The translations under genes were made by a program, and so were the position numbers. Shown here in pieces: positions 28,033 through 38,242 of a DNA stretch of 64,000 nt. This DNA is from Lachnospiraceae bacterium. Its GTDB lineage: Bacteria; Bacillota; Clostridia; Lachnospirales; Lachnospiraceae. The DNA lies in the NCBI GenBank assembly GCA_910575105.1, contig CAJTDK010000007.1:124001-188000 (forward strand). The letters run 5' to 3'. Position 1 is the first letter of the stretch, and the number at the start of each line of letters is the position of its first letter. The notes beneath the pieces are model-generated. The model was not told the DNA's origin. It did not search any database and saw nothing but the letters and a program-made list of their open reading frames with translations.

Positions 28033-28058
28033 AAGAAAAACAGCCGTAATATAATTTG

Positions 28059-28082
28059 GCCGGCAGGATGATTCCTGCCGGC
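28059..28082 (+). terminator. Terminator after the TSCPD gene
   Basis: Ten-bp inverted repeat GCCGGCAGGA / TCCTGCCGGC with a short loop, followed by TCTTTATCT. It lies 27 nt after the stop. The rest of the gap to 28219 holds nothing recognised. Confidence 0.65.
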
Positions 28083-28219
28083 TCTTTATCTAATACAGCA
28101 TAAATTATGTTTTGGATAGTTTGTCGCAGAATATTTTTCTGATAGCGCTGCTTCACAAACGCAGGCGCAGCGGTGGCTGCGACCAGAAATCTAACGCAGT
28201 AGCCTTGCGCGGTTTTTGT

Positions 28220-29005
28220 TTACATGCCCCTTTTCTGATAGACATACTTTTCCAGTCTTCCGAAGAACATCTGGTCAATGAATATCCCGATAAGGATGAT
28301 CACGATCATCACTAGCATGACCTGATTGATATCTGCCAGATTCCTCCCCGTGATCAAGGTCTGCCCAAGTCCGATACAGGTAGTCATGACTTCGCCCGAC
28401 ATCAGCGCCCTCCAGGCAAAAGACCAGCCCTGCTTAAGCCCCGAGATCAGCTCTGGAAAACTGGCCGGAAGGATCACTTCCCGGTAGACCTGCCTGGAAG
28501 TAGCTCCCATCGTCAGCGCCGCCTTCTTATAGATCGGCGGGACATTGCGGATAGCATTATCAGAGGCGATGGCGATACTGAACGCAGAACCCATAACCAC
28601 AACAAAGATTATCGCCTGCTGCGTCAGCCCGAACCACAGGATAGAAAAAGGCACCCAGCAAATACTGGGCAGCGTCTGGATCCCCATCACTAACGGCCTG
28701 AGGTTCTGATGAAGATAAGGAAAGCAGTTCATCAAAAATCCCAGAATGCTCCCCGCCACAACGGAGATCAGATACCCCGCAAGCCCGCGCAGAAGGCTGA
28801 AGCCGATAGCCGGAAGCAGCGAGCCGTTCTGGCACAGCAAGGCAAAGCTCTTTAGCACACCTGCCGGGGACGGCATAGCATAAGCCTTCCATATGGAAAA
28901 GACATCGACCCCAAGCGTATAAACTATCTGCCATAGAACGATCACTCCGCACAAAAAGACAATTTCTGAAATATATTTTGATCGAAACAATTTACTTTTT
29001 TTCAT
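28220..29005 (-). CDS. ABC transporter permease, NitT/TauT (SsuC-like)
   Basis: Membrane permease of about 261 residues with six hydrophobic segments. The EAA loop reads YKKAALTMGATSRQVYREVILPASFPELISGLKQG, interpretable here as the coupling helix to the ATPase. It belongs to the family serving nitrate, taurine, alkanesulfonates and, in some Clostridia, sulfate. ATG at 29005 overlaps the ATPase stop by 14 bases; an ATG at 29014 is an alternative. It is the last gene of the six-gene PAPS/sulfotransferase operon. Confidence 0.9.
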   Translation of the reverse strand: MKKSKLFRSKYISEIVFLCGVIVLWQIVYTLGVDVFSIWKAYAMPSPAGVLKSFALLCQNGSLLPAIGFSLLRGLAGYLISVVAGSILGFLMNCFPYLHQNLRPLVMGIQTLPSICWVPFSILWFGLTQQAIIFVVVMGSAFSIAIASDNAIRNVPPIYKKAALTMGATSRQVYREVILPASFPELISGLKQGWSFAWRALMSGEVMTTCIGLGQTLITGRNLADINQVMLVMIVIILIGIFIDQMFFGRLEKYVYQKRGM

Positions 29006-29747
29006 GGTCAGCATTCCCCTGCACTTCCTCCAGAATTCTATGGCGGTAATCGACGAATTTCTCATCGTAAACATAACGCGGCCGCTCAAGATCGATAGCG
29101 ATCACATCCGCGATGCTGTTCTTTGCAGGCGATATGACAATCACCCTGTCCGCCAGATACACTGCCTCCTCCACGCTGTGGGTGATAAATAGAATCGTGC
29201 GCTTCGTCTTAAGCCAGATCTCCTGCAGCTCCGACCTGAGACGGTTCGACGTCTGCTTGTCAAGGGCCGAGAACGGCTCGTCCATGAGGAGAATCTCAGA
29301 ATCCAGTGTCAGCGCCCTGGCTAACGCCACCCTCTGGCGCATCCCGCCGGAGAGCTGGTGTATCGCATAATCCCGGTACTCCTCAAGCTGCATCATCCGC
29401 AGATATTTCATCGCCGTATCTTCCTGCTCCTTTGCCGAAAGGCCGGCAAGCTTCATGCCGAATTTCACATTCTCGATAACATTCAGCCACGGGAACAGCG
29501 CGTGCTCCTGAAACATGACGACACGGTTGGCGGAAGGACCGTCAAACCCTTTGCCATTCAGCAGGATCTCTCCGGACGTGGGCTTCTCAAGCCCCGCGAT
29601 CAGATTCAGAAGGGTGCTCTTCCCGCACCCGCTCTGACCGACGACACAGACAAATTCGCCGTTTTGTATCTCCAGATTAATATTGTTTAGCACGTCTCCT
29701 TTGGTATCCTCAAAGGTTTTGCTGACATTTTTCAGTATTAGTGACAT
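28992..29747 (-). CDS. ABC transporter ATP-binding protein, NitT/TauT (SsuB-like)
   Basis: This 251-residue ATPase has Walker A VGQSGCGKST, Q-loop MFQEHALFPWLNV, signature LSGGMRQRVALARA, Walker B ILLMDEPFSALD and the switch His in FITHSVEEA. It matches the SsuB/TauB subfamily. It lies between the substrate-binding lipoprotein gene (15 nt upstream) and the permease gene (overlapping), forming a complete importer within the sulfation operon. Confidence 0.93.
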   Translation of the reverse strand: MSLILKNVSKTFEDTKGDVLNNINLEIQNGEFVCVVGQSGCGKSTLLNLIAGLEKPTSGEILLNGKGFDGPSANRVVMFQEHALFPWLNVIENVKFGMKLAGLSAKEQEDTAMKYLRMMQLEEYRDYAIHQLSGGMRQRVALARALTLDSEILLMDEPFSALDKQTSNRLRSELQEIWLKTKRTILFITHSVEEAVYLADRVIVISPAKNSIADVIAIDLERPRYVYDEKFVDYRHRILEEVQGNADHEKK

Positions 29748-29762
29748 ATGAAAGCCTTTCTG

Positions 29763-30734
29763 TTATTCAACAAAAATATCCTTGTAATCTTCCATGATGA
29801 ATTCCTGCTCCAGTGAGATATCTGCAAATTCTCTGATGGCGTCCTCATTGACATCCGTAGTGAATACGATCTTCCCGAAAGCGCCCGAAAGCACCGCTTC
29901 ATCCAGGGATTTCCCTGTAGCGTCATTGATCTCTTTATTGACTACAGCCGAGGCATCCGGCACATTGGCATTGATATAATCCGTCACCTTTTCATGTTCC
30001 TCAAGAAAAGCCTCTACCGCCTCCGGATTCTCTTCCATGAATTCACTGCGGACTACCACAACTGCCACAGGATAGTCGCCGCCCTTATATACCTCATCAT
30101 AGTCAAGCACGATCTGGGCGCCGTTCTTCTCCAGCGTCGTGCCCCATGGCTCAGGAACCAGGGCAGCGTCGATGTTGCCCTGATCCATCATATTCATCAC
30201 ATCCGCATTCTCCACTGCAGTTACATTCACGGTTCCTCCTTTATCTGCCGGGGACAGGCCGTTATCCTCCAGAAGCTTCAACAGACACAGATGCTGCGTG
30301 TTGCCAATCTGCGGGATCGCGACCGTCTTTCCGTCCAAATCAGCCGCGCTTTGAATCTCTGCTTCCGGAGACTTCACCAGTACCGCCCCGGCCTTCGATA
30401 CTCCTGATAATATCTTAACATCACTTTTCGACTTGACATTGGCAGTAACCGCCGGCACCGGCCCGATATATCCGATATCAATATCTCCGGCAAACAGCGC
30501 CTCAACCTCGGCAGGTCCTGCATTGAAGGCTGTCCAGTTCACCTTCATGCCATCCGGAAGCGCTTCCTCCATGGAACCTGTCGCTTTCATATAAAGAGCC
30601 TGCGCATGGGTGACATTATTAAAATACCCGATAGTCAGCTCCTCATCTCCGGAACTCTTCCCGCACCCTGCTAAAACTGCGGATACCGTCAGAAAACATG
30701 CCATCAGAAAAACCTGCAAAATTCTTTTTTTCAT
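29763..30734 (-). CDS. ABC transporter substrate-binding lipoprotein, NitT/TauT (SsuA-like)
   Basis: Lipoprotein of 323 residues. The signal peptide ends in the lipobox LAGC at about 20-23 and is followed by the periplasmic-binding-protein type 2 fold with ELTIGYFNNVTHAQALYMK and VPEPWGTTLEKNGAQIV, as in SsuA/TauA/NrtA proteins. Such proteins bind small oxyanions or sulfonates. With cysD and cysNC in the same operon, sulfate is the simplest ligand, though an organosulfonate or an acceptor molecule is possible. ATG at 30734 lies one base after the sulfotransferase stop. Confidence 0.9.
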   Translation of the reverse strand: MKKRILQVFLMACFLTVSAVLAGCGKSSGDEELTIGYFNNVTHAQALYMKATGSMEEALPDGMKVNWTAFNAGPAEVEALFAGDIDIGYIGPVPAVTANVKSKSDVKILSGVSKAGAVLVKSPEAEIQSAADLDGKTVAIPQIGNTQHLCLLKLLEDNGLSPADKGGTVNVTAVENADVMNMMDQGNIDAALVPEPWGTTLEKNGAQIVLDYDEVYKGGDYPVAVVVVRSEFMEENPEAVEAFLEEHEKVTDYINANVPDASAVVNKEINDATGKSLDEAVLSGAFGKIVFTTDVNEDAIREFADISLEQEFIMEDYKDIFVE

Positions 30735-30735
30735 G

Positions 30736-31875
30736 TTACTTCCTCTTTTTCAACAATATTTTTACCGCTGTCCTAAAGGGATGCCTGAGCTTATGCTTCA
30801 TCTCCTTAATCTCTGCCCGCAAAGCCTCATTCTCCTTCTCCATCCTTCGGAGCACGCTGATATTCACCTCTGCGGCAAAACGGATAACATCGTCCATCAT
30901 GCACGGATTACTCTTGTCCCACTTCGGAAGCTCCTTAAAGCTCAGATCGAACAGCTCTTCACCCGGCTCGCCCAGATATTCCTCTGCAACCCTGCGGTTC
31001 CCTTCCTGGAACTGCTCCAGGAAACCCTTCGCCTCCTCGATGGAAAACATACTGCTGGGATATGTCTGCTCCGAGATCTTGCTGTAGTTGAGTAAGACAC
31101 GTCTTAAAAAAATACTCTCATCCTCCGTAAGCTCCGGCAGCGTATTCAAGATCCGCTTGATCTCGCAGGTATTCCCGGAAAGGCTCTGGTTCACCGTATC
31201 CTTTGGTATCAGGTACTCATCCGTCAGCTCAAGCCCGATAATACTTAAAAAATCCGCCTGGATCATGCCATCCGGAAAACGGTTCCGCTCATAACGGCGC
31301 ACGATGATATTTTCTTTTCCAAGCACTGCGGACATCTCTCCAAGCGCTTTATCATAATCAAGCTGAAGCTCTGCCGGATAATCGCTGATATACTTTTCCC
31401 ACGGTATATATGACGCTGATTTCTTCAGCGAATTCCCTTTGACCCGCTGCTTCCAGCGGGAATCCATATACAGATCCTGCCGCCTCAAATACACGATGAG
31501 CTTTACCGCGAACTGATAGCGGTCGGCAGCGGCCTTTAAATCTTTCCACAAGGATTCTCCCAGCTTATAACTTGCTGTCCAGATACCCTCATCTGAAAGA
31601 ATAACATTATCATATATTTTAAACTGATGCAAGATATAATTCATATTTTCCTGAAAACGCTGCTTTTCTTCCCCGATCTGACGCACACCGTTCCGGTAAA
31701 TGCTCTTCTGGAGAAACATCCCATTGCGCCGTTTGGAATATCCGGCATAATAATTCTTAAAGTCAGGATAACAGTACCCTTTGCTCTCAAGTACATTCCG
31801 GTTCACCGTGCATAATTCCTGTATCGCAGATGTACCGGTCTTCGGCGTCCCTATGTGCACATATAATGTTTTCAT
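30736..31875 (-). CDS. PAPS-dependent sulfotransferase-like protein
   Basis: This 379-residue cytoplasmic protein starts MKTLYVHIGTPKTGTSAIQ, a 5'-phosphosulfate binding loop (about residues 7-19) of bacterial sulfotransferases. It continues with NVILSDEGIW and a 3'-phosphate binding segment LIVYLRRQDLYMDSRWKQ (about 126-143). The C-terminus is a basic coiled coil. ATG at 31875 has GGAGG 6 nt upstream; an earlier in-frame start at 31941 would run into cysNC. It lies between cysNC and the transporter with 23-nt and 1-nt gaps, so PAPS is made by the two genes before it. The acceptor (glycan, lipid, steroid, phenol or other) cannot be told from sequence. Confidence 0.82.
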   Translation of the reverse strand: MKTLYVHIGTPKTGTSAIQELCTVNRNVLESKGYCYPDFKNYYAGYSKRRNGMFLQKSIYRNGVRQIGEEKQRFQENMNYILHQFKIYDNVILSDEGIWTASYKLGESLWKDLKAAADRYQFAVKLIVYLRRQDLYMDSRWKQRVKGNSLKKSASYIPWEKYISDYPAELQLDYDKALGEMSAVLGKENIIVRRYERNRFPDGMIQADFLSIIGLELTDEYLIPKDTVNQSLSGNTCEIKRILNTLPELTEDESIFLRRVLLNYSKISEQTYPSSMFSIEEAKGFLEQFQEGNRRVAEEYLGEPGEELFDLSFKELPKWDKSNPCMMDDVIRFAAEVNISVLRRMEKENEALRAEIKEMKHKLRHPFRTAVKILLKKRK

Positions 31876-31898
31876 TCGCATCCTCCGTAACAAAATAA

Positions 31899-33725
31899 TT
31901 ATATAAACTCTTCCAATTTCTGAATAATGATATCTACACACTGCTCAAGATCATACTGCGCGGTATCAATTGTAATGTCCGGGTTCTCCGGCTCTTCGTA
32001 GGGACTGGTGATTCCCGTAAAGTCCGCGATCTTCCCTTCTCTCGCCGCCTTGTAAAGCCCTTTTATATCCCTGCGCTCACATTCCTCAAGCGGAGTGCTG
32101 ATATAGACCTCCACAAAGCTGTCCCCGATGATCTTCTTCGCATTTCTCCGATCCTGCGCATAAGGCGAGATAAAAGAAGTAAGGACGATAAGCCCCGCAT
32201 CATTCATCAGCTTCGCGACCTCGGCGATCCTCCGGATATTTTCAATACGGTCCTGCTGTCCGAAGCCAAGATTCTTATTAAGCCCCATCCGGATATTGTC
32301 CCCGTCAAGGAGCATCGTATGTCTGCCCATGGAGAACAGCTTCTTTTCCAGGGCGTTGGCAACTGTAGATTTGCCAGAACCTGACAGCCCGGTCATCCAC
32401 ACCGTGACAGCCTTCTGGCCTAACTGACCCTCTCTGAGCGTTCTCGTAATATCCATATTATTCCAGGTAAGATTATTTTCCCTCAAGCTTTCCTGGACTA
32501 CCACCCCGCAGGCAGAGGTCATATTGGTGATCCGGTTGATCAAGATCAGCGATCCCAGCTCCTGATGATTGGAAAACTCGTCGAATACGATCTTGCTTCC
32601 CACGGAAATCTCACAGAGGGCGATCTCATTCTTGCAGATCGTCGATGCTTCGATCTTGTTGCCCGAATTAATGTCGATCTTATGCTTAATCCCCAGGACA
32701 GTCGCCGGAACCTGCTGAGTTCCCAGCTTCAGCAGGAAATTCATCCCCGCCGTCAGATTACTGTCATCCATCCACAGTATGGAGGCGATCAGCATCCTGC
32801 CCACCGTCATGCTGCTGTCCTTCGTCAGGACGCAGCCTCTGGACACATCGATCTCCGTATCAAGCTGGATCGTGACCGCATGGCCGTTCCTGCTTCTGTC
32901 CACTTCCTGATCCCCCTGAAGGATGCCCGCCACCCTGGCTTTCTCCTTGCTTGGCAGGACAGTAACCGTATCGCCCACCGCGATCTCGCCTGACGCGATC
33001 TGTCCCTGGAAACCTCTGAATCCCCTGTTTGGGCGGCACACGCGCTGAACTGGCATGACAAACCCGGCATTCTCATCCTCCTTCGATACATCTATCGTCT
33101 CCAGATAATGGAGGAGAGACGGCCCGGTATACCACACCATCTGATTTGATTTTTTGGTAATATTATCTCCCTCTGTCGCAGACACCGGGATGATCTTTAT
33201 CGTCTTATAGTCAAATTCTGACATCAACATCTTAATATCTTTTTTCACCTTACGGAAACGCGCCTGATCGTAATGCACCAGATCCATCTTGTTCACCGTA
33301 AAGACAAAATGGCGAATCCCCATCAATGCACAGATTCTGGCATGGCGCTTCGTCTGGAGGAGAACGCCCTGGCTGGCATCAACCAAGATGACACTGAGCG
33401 CAGCAAATGACGCTCCCACCGCCATATTTCTCGTATATTCTTCATGTCCCGGAGTATCAGCCACAATAAAACTTCTATTCTCCGTCGTAAAATAGCGGTA
33501 AGCCACATCGATAGTGATCCCCTGCTCCCGCTCTGCCATCAACCCGTCCAGCAACAGGGAATAGTCGATCTTTCCGTCATTGGAACCCACCTTGGAATCC
33601 AGCTCCAGCGCTTTCTTCTGATCCGTGAACAGCAGCTTCGCATCGTAGAGCATATGGCCGATCAGCGTAGATTTCCCGTCGTCTACACTGCCGCATGTGA
33701 TAAATTTTAATAAGTCATTTTTCAT
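31899..33725 (-). CDS. cysNC: Bifunctional sulfate adenylyltransferase subunit 1 / APS kinase
   Basis: Fusion of 608 residues. The N-terminal CysN GTPase has GSVDDGKST, DTPGHEEY and NKMD and drives APS formation with CysD. Translation-factor-like beta barrels follow (about 225-425), then a C-terminal CysC APS kinase from about 430 with P-loop GLSGSGKST, DGDNIR and FISPYAQDRR. The product is PAPS. Both active sites look complete. ATG at 33725 begins one base after the cysD stop, with GAGAGGG upstream; the longer frame to 33842 overlaps cysD. The fusion commits sulfate to PAPS, and the next gene is a sulfotransferase. Confidence 0.95.
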   Translation of the reverse strand: MKNDLLKFITCGSVDDGKSTLIGHMLYDAKLLFTDQKKALELDSKVGSNDGKIDYSLLLDGLMAEREQGITIDVAYRYFTTENRSFIVADTPGHEEYTRNMAVGASFAALSVILVDASQGVLLQTKRHARICALMGIRHFVFTVNKMDLVHYDQARFRKVKKDIKMLMSEFDYKTIKIIPVSATEGDNITKKSNQMVWYTGPSLLHYLETIDVSKEDENAGFVMPVQRVCRPNRGFRGFQGQIASGEIAVGDTVTVLPSKEKARVAGILQGDQEVDRSRNGHAVTIQLDTEIDVSRGCVLTKDSSMTVGRMLIASILWMDDSNLTAGMNFLLKLGTQQVPATVLGIKHKIDINSGNKIEASTICKNEIALCEISVGSKIVFDEFSNHQELGSLILINRITNMTSACGVVVQESLRENNLTWNNMDITRTLREGQLGQKAVTVWMTGLSGSGKSTVANALEKKLFSMGRHTMLLDGDNIRMGLNKNLGFGQQDRIENIRRIAEVAKLMNDAGLIVLTSFISPYAQDRRNAKKIIGDSFVEVYISTPLEECERRDIKGLYKAAREGKIADFTGITSPYEEPENPDITIDTAQYDLEQCVDIIIQKLEEFI

Positions 33726-33726
33726 C

Positions 33727-34620
33727 TTAAAAATATCCCTCTCGCTTCCTCTTTTCCATACTGGCGGAACCGCCGTCCGAATCAATGACCCGGCTTGTCC
33801 TCTCCGACTCCACGGCTCCCAGTGTCTCCTCGATAATCTCATCTAACGTAGCTGCCGAAGACTCTACTCCGCCTGTCAGCGGATAACAGCCCAGTGTGCG
33901 GAAACGCACCATCTTCGTCTCGATCTTCTCGCCCGGCAGAAGCTTTAGCCTGTCGTCTGCAGCCATAATGATATTGCCGTCCCGTTCGATGACCGGCCGG
34001 GGCTTAGCAAAGTATAAAGGCACGATCGGTATATTTTCTTTTTTAATATATTGCCAGATATCGGCTTCCGTCCAGTTGGACAGTGGAAATACCCGGATGC
34101 TCTCACCCTGGTTAATCCTCGTATTATAGAGCTTCCACATCTCCGGACGCTGGTTTTTCGGATCCCATGCATGTTCAGAATTCCGAAACGAAAAAATCCG
34201 CTCTTTTGCCCGGGACTTCTCTTCGTCCCGCCTTCCCCCGCCAAAAGCCGCAGTAAAGCCGTATTTGTCCAAAGCCTGTTTTAATGCCTGTGTCTTCATG
34301 ATATCCGTATACGCGGCACCATGATCAAAGGGATTAATCCCCTGTTTTACACCATCCTCATTAATGTATTCCAGCATTTCAATCTGGAGCTCTTTTGCCC
34401 TTCTGTCCCGGAACTCAATCATCTCCGGGAACTTCCACGTCGTATTCACATGCAGAAAAGGAAAAGGCGGCTTCTCCGGATAGAACGCCTTCAATGCCAG
34501 GTGAAGCATTACTGAAGAATCCTTGCCGATGGAGTACAGCATAACCGGCTTCTCACATTCCGCCGCAACTTCCCTCATGATATAGATTGCTTCTGCCTCA
34601 AGTTCTTCTAAATGGTTCAT
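33727..34620 (-). CDS. cysD: Sulfate adenylyltransferase subunit 2
   Basis: PAPS-reductase-fold protein of 297 residues catalysing ATP plus sulfate to APS together with CysN. It has the PP-loop [41 protein letters not shown] and [12 protein letters not shown], all CysD signatures that distinguish it from CysH reductases. ATG at 34620 is preferred over ATG at 34623 for its spacing from GGGAG. It is the first gene of the operon, and a bidirectional terminator and a long hairpin lie upstream. Confidence 0.95.
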
Positions 34621-34721
34621 CATCTACTCCCGTCTTTTTTTCATATTTTGTACGTCTGTATTCCACAGTATGTATAAATTACCACTGGAAAATTAAACTA
34701 ATATTAAATCGTGTGAAAAAA

Positions 34722-35532: not shown

Positions 35533-36378
35533 TTACAAAAAATATAAATTTTTTAAAATTTCTATAAATTCTTCTTTATCCAACTTTCCAGCCAGAAAAT
35601 ATTCTAACTTTTTATACGTAAAATGAGCCGAGCATTTAATCGTTCCTGTTTCTTTTACTTGATATATTGATAATTCTATATCATTGCCACCAATCTTCAT
35701 TTCTTCTTTATCTATAATTTCATCGTCCCCATCAAATCCAAAAGAAGAATTATAATATCCTGCACTAATCACATACAACAACGTTTTCTCATTAAACTCA
35801 TATATCATTTCCGCAACTTGCAAGTTGTCATTCAACTCCATCTCAATAAATTTTATTCCTTTTTGTTGACTAGCAAATCTAACCGGTTCCACTCCAAACG
35901 TATCCTTAATTTCTTGATACGCCTCTTTCTCATCTTCATTCTCCGACACCTTATTCTCTTCATCAGAATCTACCTGTACAACTTTTCTCCCTCCAACAAC
36001 CTGTTCGATCACCGATGCGATCCTCTCGGCCCCGCCCGTACTTGTCATTCCAATACCCAACACAAGCAATACCGCAGCCGCGGACGCCGCATACATCCTA
36101 ATCCTTCTCTTCCTGCGCTTCTTCCGGCCGCCGGAACGTTCCTCCCGAATCTTTCGCCCGAGCATGAGCGCTTCCCGGTCTTCTTCGGAAAGTCCTGCAT
36201 AAGCCTGTTCTTTTTCGTAAGTATCAATGCGACTCTGCAGCTTAAGCCGGATATCATCTTTGAGAGCATTAGGCATCTCTTTGATCTCAGATGCATCAAC
36301 TTCCTTCTGGATGGCTTCTGCTTCACCATATAAGTCTTCTCTTATTACCTGTTCCAAATCATCTCTCTGCATTGTCAT
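35533..36378 (-). CDS. Anti-sigma-like membrane protein with DUF4367-type C-terminus
   Basis: Single-pass protein of about 281 residues. The cytoplasmic N-terminus (1-95) begins MTMQRDDLEQVIREDLYGEA and ends in a basic stretch; one transmembrane helix follows (about 95-113); the extracellular C-terminal domain (about 160-281) is rich in beta-strand phrases, as in DUF4367 proteins. This architecture is usual for ECF anti-sigma partners. ATG at 36378 has GAGG 8 nt upstream. The probable cognate ECF sigma gene lies at 37667-38242 on the same strand, with murG between them. Confidence 0.6.
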   Translation of the reverse strand: MTMQRDDLEQVIREDLYGEAEAIQKEVDASEIKEMPNALKDDIRLKLQSRIDTYEKEQAYAGLSEEDREALMLGRKIREERSGGRKKRRKRRIRMYAASAAAVLLVLGIGMTSTGGAERIASVIEQVVGGRKVVQVDSDEENKVSENEDEKEAYQEIKDTFGVEPVRFASQQKGIKFIEMELNDNLQVAEMIYEFNEKTLLYVISAGYYNSSFGFDGDDEIIDKEEMKIGGNDIELSIYQVKETGTIKCSAHFTYKKLEYFLAGKLDKEEFIEILKNLYFL

Positions 36379-36529
36379 TGAAAATACCTCATAAAACAGG
36401 CTGTTCACCCGTCTCTTTCTCTTGACCAATCTATATCAGATTGTATAATATATAAGTAACAGTTCTTTTGTTGCAGATTATAGACTGTTTAACTTGTAGT
36501 AGTTAAAGATTTTCTTTTCGGAGGTTCTT

Positions 36530-37594
36530 ATGAAACGTATTATCTTAACTGGCGGCGGCACCGCCGGTCATGTTACTCCCAACATTGCTCTCCTTCCCCG
36601 TCTTAAGGAGCTGCACTATGATATCCACTATATCGGCTCCTATAACGGAATCGAGAAGGAACTGATTGAGCAGTTCGGCATCCCGTATCATGGGATTGCC
36701 ACCGGAAAGCTCCGCCGCTATTTCAGTCTCCAGAATTTTACCGACCCATTCCGTGTTCTTAAGGGCATGAACGAAGCGAAAAAACTTGTGAAGATCCTGA
36801 AGCCTGACGTTATCTTTTCCAAAGGCGGCTTCGTATCTGTCCCTGTCGTACTTTCCGGAAAAAGATGCCGTGTTCCGGTCATCATACACGAATCAGATAT
36901 GACCCCGGGACTTGCCAACAAGATCTCCCTGTCGGCCGCCACAAAGGTATGCTGCAATTTCCCGGAAACGTTGGAACTTCTTCCCGAAGGAAAAGCAATA
37001 CTCACCGGTTCGCCTATCCGTCAGGAGCTGCTATCCGGAGACAAGTTCAAAGCACGTGAGTTCCTCGGGTTCACCGCCGACAAACCGGTGATCCTTGTTG
37101 TCGGCGGAAGTCTGGGCGCTGTTGCTGTCAACGAAGCAGTGCGCGCCATCCTCCCCGAGCTTCTCAAATCCTATCAGGTCATCCACCTGTGCGGCCGCGG
37201 CAAGCTCAACGAATCACTAAAAGGGCTTGAAGGATATGCACAGTTTGAATATGTCAAAGAAGAATTAAAAGATTTCTTCGCTCTTACAGATATCGTTATC
37301 TCCAGAGCCGGCGCCAACGCGATCTGCGAACTCCTGGCCTTACATAAACCAAACCTGCTGATCCCCCTCTCTGCCAATGCCAGCCGCGGGGACCAGATTC
37401 TGAACGCCCGCTCTTTCGAGCGTCAGGGCTTTAGTATCGTCCTGGAAGAAGAATCGCTGACAGACGAGACTCTTCTGGATGCCGTAAGCAGGCTGTACGA
37501 GCACCGCGAACATTATATCCACACGATGAAGAACTCCTCACAGCAGAATTCTATCGACACAATCGTCGATTTGATTGAATCTGTCACTGCCTGA
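36530..37594 (+). CDS. murG: UDP-GlcNAc:lipid II precursor GlcNAc transferase
   Basis: Peripheral membrane GT28 enzyme of 354 residues converting lipid I to lipid II in peptidoglycan synthesis. It starts RIILTGGGTAGHVTPNIAL (G-loop 1) and has SKGGFVSVPVV, IHESDMTPGLANK, VVGGSLGAVAVN and SRAGANAICELLAL. Firmicutes often carry a second MurG outside the dcw cluster, and this copy has no cell-division genes beside it. GGAGG precedes ATG at 36530. It is the only plus-strand gene in its stretch. Confidence 0.93.
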   Translation: MKRIILTGGGTAGHVTPNIALLPRLKELHYDIHYIGSYNGIEKELIEQFGIPYHGIATGKLRRYFSLQNFTDPFRVLKGMNEAKKLVKILKPDVIFSKGGFVSVPVVLSGKRCRVPVIIHESDMTPGLANKISLSAATKVCCNFPETLELLPEGKAILTGSPIRQELLSGDKFKAREFLGFTADKPVILVVGGSLGAVAVNEAVRAILPELLKSYQVIHLCGRGKLNESLKGLEGYAQFEYVKEELKDFFALTDIVISRAGANAICELLALHKPNLLIPLSANASRGDQILNARSFERQGFSIVLEEESLTDETLLDAVSRLYEHREHYIHTMKNSSQQNSIDTIVDLIESVTA

Positions 37595-37642
37595 TGCTTT
37601 GCCGTATATCCTGCAGTCAACATCGAATGTTGTCTTATAAAT

Positions 37643-37665
37643 AGAAGGTGCTAAAAGCACCTTCT
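37643..37665. terminator. Hairpin between convergent murG and ECF sigma genes
   Basis: Perfect 9-bp stem (37643-37651 with 37657-37665) and a 5-nt loop, adjoining the sigma gene stop codon. Flanking T runs are weak, so termination efficiency is uncertain. Confidence 0.55.
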
Positions 37666-37666
37666 A

Positions 37667-38242
37667 TTATGTATCACTTAGGCGGTCATACTCTTCTTTA
37701 TATTTTCTCTGTATCCACTTCTTTGCACGGTACAGCATACTATGCAGAACTTCCAGCGTCACTCCCATATCCTCGGCCACTTCCTTCTGCGGCTTTTCCA
37801 GAAGATAAGTGATCGTAATCGCGTCATACCAACGCTCATTCATCTGATACAGATCGCTGAATATTCTTTCCGCAAGCCCATGACATTCCCGGTCATGCAA
37901 AATAGTCATTATTTCGTCTTCTGTACTGCCCACAAGATAATCTATGTTCCCGTCTTCAAAGAGATCACTTCCGGGAATCTCATGCCATCTGTCTCTTTTA
38001 TGGTTCTTCACCATATTTCTCGCTGTCGTGATCAACCATGCACTGACTGCATTCGCATTAACATTTTCTTTGCTGATATATAGTTTCAGGAATACTTCTT
38101 GTGTAATCTCTTCTGCCACGTATTCGTCTCCAGAATAACACAATGCTGTCCGATAAACTGCGGATACATTTTCCTCATATACCTTATCAAAATCCACACT
38201 TCTACCAGAATCCGCTTCACTGGTAATTCCTTTGCCTTCCAC
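37667..38242 (-). CDS. ECF-type RNA polymerase sigma factor
   Basis: Sigma-70 family protein of 191 residues with region 2 (YEENVSAVYRTALCYSGDEYVAEEITQEVF) and a region 4 helix-turn-helix (LLEKPQKEVAEDMGVTLEVL). GTG at 38242 is preceded by GAGG at 8 nt. Its probable anti-sigma partner lies beyond murG at 35533-36378. It starts 29 nt from the stop of the HIT-family gene on the same strand, so they may be co-transcribed. Confidence 0.88.
   Translation of the reverse strand: MEGKGITSEADSGRSVDFDKVYEENVSAVYRTALCYSGDEYVAEEITQEVFLKLYISKENVNANAVSAWLITTARNMVKNHKRDRWHEIPGSDLFEDGNIDYLVGSTEDEIMTILHDRECHGLAERIFSDLYQMNERWYDAITITYLLEKPQKEVAEDMGVTLEVLHSMLYRAKKWIQRKYKEEYDRLSDT

Follow-up and report, generated by a model that had tools for sequence, protein, structure and literature searches.

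We describe an apparent operon for attaching sulfate to a product of the cell, encoded in a stretch of 64,000 nucleotides from a Lachnospiraceae bacterium (assembly GCA_910575105.1, contig CAJTDK010000007.1, positions 124,001 to 188,000; hereafter the window). Lachnospiraceae are commonly found in the guts of animals. Six genes lie together on the minus strand, in the order cysD, cysNC, a sulfotransferase gene, and the genes for the binding lipoprotein, ATPase and permease of an ATP-binding cassette (ABC) importer. We consider it probable that they form a self-contained sulfation module, which imports sulfate, synthesizes 3′-phosphoadenosine 5′-phosphosulfate (PAPS) and transfers the sulfuryl group to a surface acceptor that the cell makes itself. 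The gene order, the protein families, the residues of the PAPS site, the absence of the usual reductases of adenosine 5′-phosphosulfate (APS) and PAPS, the recurrence of the core genes and the exchange of one kind of importer for another can all be read directly from the genomes.

Features of the operon (window coordinates, strand, product, basis)
33727..34623, minus strand: cysD, ATP sulfurylase small subunit, 298 aa (NF009214, 498.7 bits, cut-off 413)
31899..33725, minus strand: cysNC, fusion of GTP-dependent ATP sulfurylase large subunit and APS kinase, 608 aa (NF004035, 823.9 bits, cut-off 715; PF01583)
30736..31875, minus strand: predicted PAPS-dependent sulfotransferase, 379 aa, without a Pfam or NCBIfam model (PAPS-site motifs, fold)
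29763..30734, minus strand: substrate-binding lipoprotein of the NMT1/SsuA (NitT/TauT) type, 323 aa, proposed to bind sulfate (TIGR01728, 221.3 bits, cut-off 163.5)
28992..29747, minus strand: ABC importer ATPase, 251 aa (PF00005)
28220..29005, minus strand: ABC importer permease, 261 aa, with a 14-nt overlap with the ATPase gene (PF00528)
28033..34717, no strand: 6,685-bp stretch, for which a second genome of the genus, G367, has 427 bp in the syntenic position (alignment to G367)

These coordinates reproduce the gaps of 1, 23, 1, 15 and -14 nt of the six-gene operon that the original prediction had placed at 28220..34620; the start codons were chosen by hand on open reading frames (ORFs) from a custom mechanical caller, that of cysNC being set 1 nt past cysD. 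The P-loops of both CysN and CysC are legible in the CysNC translation, in agreement with the earlier remark that the motifs for making PAPS look intact. In the mechanism that we propose, the lipoprotein, ATPase and permease would import inorganic sulfate, a ligand to which the genomic context points strongly, the direction of transport being likewise a prediction; CysD and CysNC would convert it to APS and then to PAPS, and the sulfotransferase, presumably acting close to the membrane at its inner face, would move the sulfuryl group to an acceptor made by the cell. That acceptor would most likely be a saccharide of a surface glycopolymer of a capsule-, rhamnan- or teichoic-acid-like kind, as the moderate evidence given below suggests.

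Conservation and genomic place of the operon

The source genome (4.24 Mb, 99.96% complete) has two relatives of the same genus with the operon. In G057 the entire order is retained, with proteins 81-98% identical (L036, the same stretch as L054 of record CANAPP010000003.1). G367 retains the order at a different place, adjoining an EamA-type gene as read from its translation (L038/L055), and there a DDE transposase gene (PF13701; L038:7189-8553) sits within the binding-protein gene. Because the order is kept in G057 and, interrupted by the transposase, in G367, it is retained beyond chance; and because G367 has 427 bp in place of the window's 6,685 bp and carries the operon elsewhere, the six genes were acquired, deleted or relocated together, as a single block. 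The stretch from 28033 to 34717 contains these six genes and no further gene that we recognised. On the upstream side (35533-38242) lie genes for a DUF4367 protein (35533-36429) and an extracytoplasmic-function (ECF) type sigma factor (37667-38242), which fall outside the unit, since the operon-less place in G367 aligns with the window from position 34718 onward as well. No Rfam family matched anywhere in the window at gathering scores, and scans for promoters and terminators were discarded, with 11 promoter-like sites where 10.3 were expected and 8 terminator-like sites where 5.7 were expected.

Among 397 genomes of the family the sulfotransferase occurs in 23 and CysN(C) in 81, and all 23 fall within the 81 (Fisher p 8e-18; this and the other Fisher tests ignore the relatedness of the genomes). 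A scan of the species genomes of the GTDB database gave 381 places encoding relatives of the sulfotransferase, among them strains such as Anaerobutyricum hallii DSM 3353, Roseburia faecis M72, Petralouisia muris NM01_1-7b and Eubacterium oxidoreducens DSM 3217. From these we took the best 80 by similarity to the query, a set that leaves out the window and in which many loci end at contig ends. CysNC or CysC (a label that also takes in stand-alone CysC and pieces) is encoded within the fetched stretch in 42 of the 80 loci and CysD in 36. All three core genes are present in 35, a recurrence of the trio within Lachnospiraceae; in these 'complete' loci the genes lie within a stretch of up to 21 kb, are not always contiguous and are in places split (L088, L093, L112). 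A class-level sample gave matches in only 3 of 341 genomes, the window's own counted, and the sulfotransferase family therefore seems to be centred on Lachnospiraceae.

The sulfotransferase and its acceptor

Both PAPS-binding segments claimed for the sulfotransferase are present: the 5′-PSB loop near the N terminus (HIGTPKTGT, residues 7-15), together with E96, and R131 and S139 of the 3′-PB segment, to use what we take to be the customary names. H7, G9, T13, R131 and S139 are conserved in 92 of 92 sequences and K12 in 91. The enzyme has the sulfotransferase fold of the P-loop superfamily, and its top structural matches are the heparan-sulfate N- and 3-O-sulfotransferases (NDST, 3-OST), which at 9-14% identity are not found by a sequence search. 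None of the Pfam sulfotransferase families (PF00685, PF13469 and others) matches the window protein at E values up to 1. Within a set of 25 members (set A1), weak matches to PF00685 were obtained for five (best E 1.6e-4) and to PF13469 for four (best 0.033), and a profile of the family gave a single chance-level match (E 0.77) among the sequences of solved structures.

The window's genome encodes two further members of the family. One is an orphan copy, 55% identical, which adjoins the EamA-type gene there; the other (34% identity, C8) belongs to a cluster with genes for RgpF, WbsX, glycosyltransferases and an NKWYS capsular-synthesis protein. Of the 80 loci, 10 contain genes like those for CDP-glycerol glycerophosphotransferases and 5 contain IspD/TarI-like genes (representatives verified); single relatives of the sulfotransferase have confirmed pyruvyltransferase, NeuB and glycosyltransferase genes nearby. 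More than one sulfotransferase ORF of any length is seen in 17 of the 80 loci, and at least two full-length copies (330 aa or longer) in 12. One locus (L049:6571-12308, genome G168) has five tandem sulfotransferases of the window's family beside pyruvyltransferase, Glyphos_transf and IspD-like genes. A surface glycopolymer is our best single guess for the acceptor, held with moderate confidence.

The strongest competitor shares the import and activation steps and differs in the acceptor, which would be a small molecule or lipid (a sterol, bile acid, phenol or membrane lipid), in the style of cholesterol sulfation in Bacteroides. One report describes the cholesterol sulfation cluster BT_0411-BT_0416 of Bacteroides thetaiotaomicron, in which BT_0412 is envisaged as a sulfate importer beside the PAPS genes and the sulfotransferase BT_0416 (PMC9417993). 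The original prediction had drawn this steroid analogy, and as far as adjacency goes it holds, PAPS genes, importer and sulfotransferase standing together in both. The Bacteroides cluster nonetheless belongs to another phylum, the window's importer is a NitT/TauT-type ABC system, and the likeness drawn here is one of gene content. The fold does not favour a steroid acceptor: the top structural matches are enzymes of heparan sulfate, although a shared fold does not show function. Paralogues and relatives in capsule- and teichoic-type clusters likewise speak against a small molecule, and both the multi-copy loci and the five tandem genes would suit the sulfation of particular positions on a glycan. 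We regard a small-molecule or lipid acceptor as unlikely, though it is the best placed of the alternatives.

The importer and its cargo

The binding protein, which also matches PF13379, is of the NMT1/SsuA type and is accompanied by its ATPase and permease. It scores above the cut-off of an SsuA family, and among proteins of solved structure TauA and SsuA resemble it most in sequence; these relationships favour an importer that carries a sulfonate (taurine, isethionate, alkanesulfonate) or even the organic acceptor in place of sulfate. The genomic context points elsewhere. Importer-family genes are present in 27 of the 80 loci, of the CHR type in 13, the classical Sbp/CysTW type in 9 and the NitT/TauT type in 5, and no locus has two kinds; for the 35 complete loci the numbers are 21 in all, divided 8, 8 and 5. 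They make up 23 of 159 direct neighbours of the core genes, compared with 2 of 287 ORFs lying 5 kb or more away. All three components of the classical set in L086, sulfate Sbp, CysT and CysW, score above their NCBIfam cut-offs, and a CHR representative matches PF02417, a family that we take to be tied to sulfate.

Orthologues of the binding protein were found in 15 of the 397 genomes; every one of these also has CysN(C), and 11 have the sulfotransferase. We compared 43 genomes with CysN, consisting of the 23 with the sulfotransferase and 20 of the others among the 81, hand-picked for a fused-type CysN match or the presence of the binding protein. The NitT/TauT importer and Sbp occur together in 2 of these, the former alone in 13 (G367, with its binding-protein gene interrupted, being counted as having one), Sbp alone in 19 and neither in 9, so that the two importers are anti-correlated (p 7e-4). 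Where the NitT/TauT importer is unlinked, it is often divergent from a gene for a LacI-type regulator, and this regulator family (E up to 1e-40) has 27 matches in the 43 genomes: 9 near a NitT/TauT importer, 13 near a classical sulfate importer, all within 7 kb, and 5 near neither. No match to the regulator was found in the three genomes of the window's genus (G000, the source genome, G057 and G367).

In some loci the sulfotransferase is fused in frame to a binding lipoprotein, either of the NitT/TauT type (L100:10001-12133, L107:3649-5784) or of the classical sulfate-binding type (L097:9024-11351). The fusions thus involve two unrelated families of binding proteins, with a lipoprotein signal segment at the junction. 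In L100 a separate start for the lipoprotein is still conceivable at an in-frame ATG; in L107 the sole nearby ATG lies past the basic segment, and in L097 the stretch inspected contains no ATG. The L107 contig, titled Muribaculaceae, resembles the L100 locus of a Blautia metagenome-assembled genome with a similar isolate name and is probably misbinned.

Two genomes (G106 and G343) have the NitT/TauT importer and, beside cysD-cysNC, a sulfotransferase of another type, with none of the window's type; because of this pairing the importer seems to go with PAPS synthesis and not with any single sulfotransferase. A protein of this other type in L194 (L194:4996-8882) matches PF13469, and one in L191 (L191:6440-10349) is 53% identical to it; the L194 enzyme, also from a Lachnospiraceae genome, gave no significant BLAST match to the window's sulfotransferase.

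Taken together, the exchange between importers, the shared regulator, the anti-correlation, the fusions and the co-occurrence with CysN(C) make sulfate the likeliest cargo, and the NitT/TauT-type system is very probably a sulfate importer, as predicted from context. An importer of a sulfonate or of the organic acceptor is improbable: the system shares its regulator and exchanges its place with the classical sulfate importer and is anti-correlated with Sbp, and we saw no desulfonation gene around the 11 unlinked importer loci, inspected by eye from the starts of the translations. A sulfonate-lyase reading of the genome's sulfite-reductase-like gene was also discarded, as the neighbouring glycyl-radical enzyme passes the cut-off for trans-4-hydroxyproline dehydratase and not that for a sulfonate enzyme. 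The idea of a sulfate importer, put forward earlier on the strength of an assignment in Clostridium, thus gains support on new grounds, those of regulator and locus exchange; no paper making that assignment was among the open-licence matches listed.

PAPS synthesis and the search for a reduction pathway

No CysH over the cut-off was found in any of the 23 genomes with the sulfotransferase, compared with 8 of 14 control genomes. An AprA orthologue is lacking in the window's genome; four of the 23 have one (G171, which supplied the query, G319, G103 and G286), and in the two that were read, G319 and G171, genes for AprBA, CysD, CysN and a sulfite-reductase-like protein cluster apart from the sulfotransferase locus. 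Three proteins of the window's genome match PF01507 (PAPS_reduct): CysD, a 794-aa protein and a 242-aa protein. A reading of the last two as hidden reductases was rejected, the longer being BrxP of a BrxC-PglZ-BrxL cluster and below the CysH cut-off, the shorter falling below all NCBIfam cut-offs, that for CysH included. The BREX-type cluster runs BrxP, BrxC, PglZ, BrxL and then a DndA/SspA-like cysteine desulfurase (G000:C26, L149:1860-13551). The genome's lone PF01077 (NIR_SIR, sulfite-reductase-like) protein (G000:C3, L146:5485-10587) is far below every NCBIfam cut-off and without a clear subfamily; its gene adjoins those for hydroxyproline dehydratase and its activase.

The earlier statement that no reductase is present therefore stands for the ORFs of the window, as judged by eye, and for the whole genome as regards CysH and AprA, and is qualified by the one PF01077 protein; the conclusion drawn from it, that sulfate is activated for transfer and not for reduction, is supported. 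That the genes serve the assimilation of sulfate to cysteine, the sulfotransferase being incidental, was rejected as highly improbable, since no CysH over the cut-off and no AprA orthologue was found, one of the remaining PAPS_reduct proteins is BrxP and the other falls below all NCBIfam cut-offs, and the clusters in the two relatives stand separate and use AprBA, a single sulfite-reductase-like protein being all that speaks for it.

Points that weigh against a surface-sulfation module

Several observations do not sit easily with a module for importing sulfate and transferring it to a surface glycopolymer. At least two hits to 11 glycan probes were obtained in only 10 of the 80 loci; in the sulfotransferase tree PAPS, glycan and other contexts are mixed and the window's clade is not tied to glycan clusters; and inspection of the window by eye revealed no recognisable cluster for a glycan polymer, with the exception of MurG. 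PF01077 proteins are found in 16 of the 23 sulfotransferase genomes. The binding protein's family carries a sulfonate name, sulfate being a prediction from context, and the 9 of 43 CysN genomes with neither ABC importer indicate that PAPS systems can dispense with one. The window's genome lacks both a classical Sbp and CHR, in a search that did not extend to SulP, DASS, PiT-type or other carriers; its relatives G057 and G367 do have CHR proteins, and the binding-protein gene of G367 is interrupted. Relatedness among genomes also inflates the significance of the Fisher tests.

Relation to known systems

PAPS genes with a dedicated sulfotransferase are familiar from Proteobacteria in the rhizobial NodPQ/NodH and Xanthomonas RaxPQ/RaxST systems, whose acceptors are signalling molecules or peptides; to our knowledge an importer is not part of these units. 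In Vibrio sp. KMM 8419, cysD, cysN, cysC and sulfotransferase genes, for which a role in sulfating a surface polysaccharide is proposed, lie inside an 80-gene capsule cluster with glycosyltransferases and a known polymer (PMC11641403); the window's operon differs from that cluster in having no adjoining polymer genes and in adding a substrate-importing ABC system. A Firmicute version with its own importer had been thought new, a view that needs trimming: the architecture has a precedent in Bacteroides (PMC9417993), and the core recurs in Lachnospiraceae, while this kind of importer is found in only 5 of the 35 complete loci. Among the open-licence PMC matches listed there was no description of the sulfotransferase family or operon in Lachnospiraceae, nor any report of the importer exchange, of the regulators or of a NitT/TauT importer serving sulfation.

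Regulation and wider significance

OmpR-type response regulators and histidine kinases adjoin the core genes in 26 of the 80 loci, and two-component genes account for 32 of 133 direct neighbours, compared with 10 of 285 ORFs lying 5 kb or more away (p 5e-10), two of the pairs having been confirmed by Pfam. Examples directly beside sulfotransferase or PAPS genes are seen at L079:11211-13222 and L112:5257-7138; none was seen next to the window's operon. More tentatively, these loci may represent a large, as yet unnamed and regulated system of envelope sulfation in Lachnospiraceae, with an unmodelled sulfotransferase family, dedicated PAPS synthesis, an exchangeable importer (CHR, Sbp-CysTW or NitT/TauT) and two-component regulators beside many of the loci. 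In the species with fusions, the lipoprotein would, if the fusion is real, tether the enzyme to the membrane at the site of import. Because named strains are among the 381 places, the question of sulfation is open to direct testing.

Sulfate in the gut is usually tracked as a substrate for hydrogen sulfide, and uptake by these bacteria to decorate their own molecules would, if it occurs, be an additional gut sulfate sink. One gut metagenome study tallied cysDN and cysC as genes of assimilatory sulfate reduction (PMC11328384), a label that would mislead wherever cysNC adjoins a sulfotransferase of the window's type. If the proposed reading is correct, these commensals display sulfate at their surface, where it could mimic sulfated mucin or act as a shield against it and against cationic host peptides.
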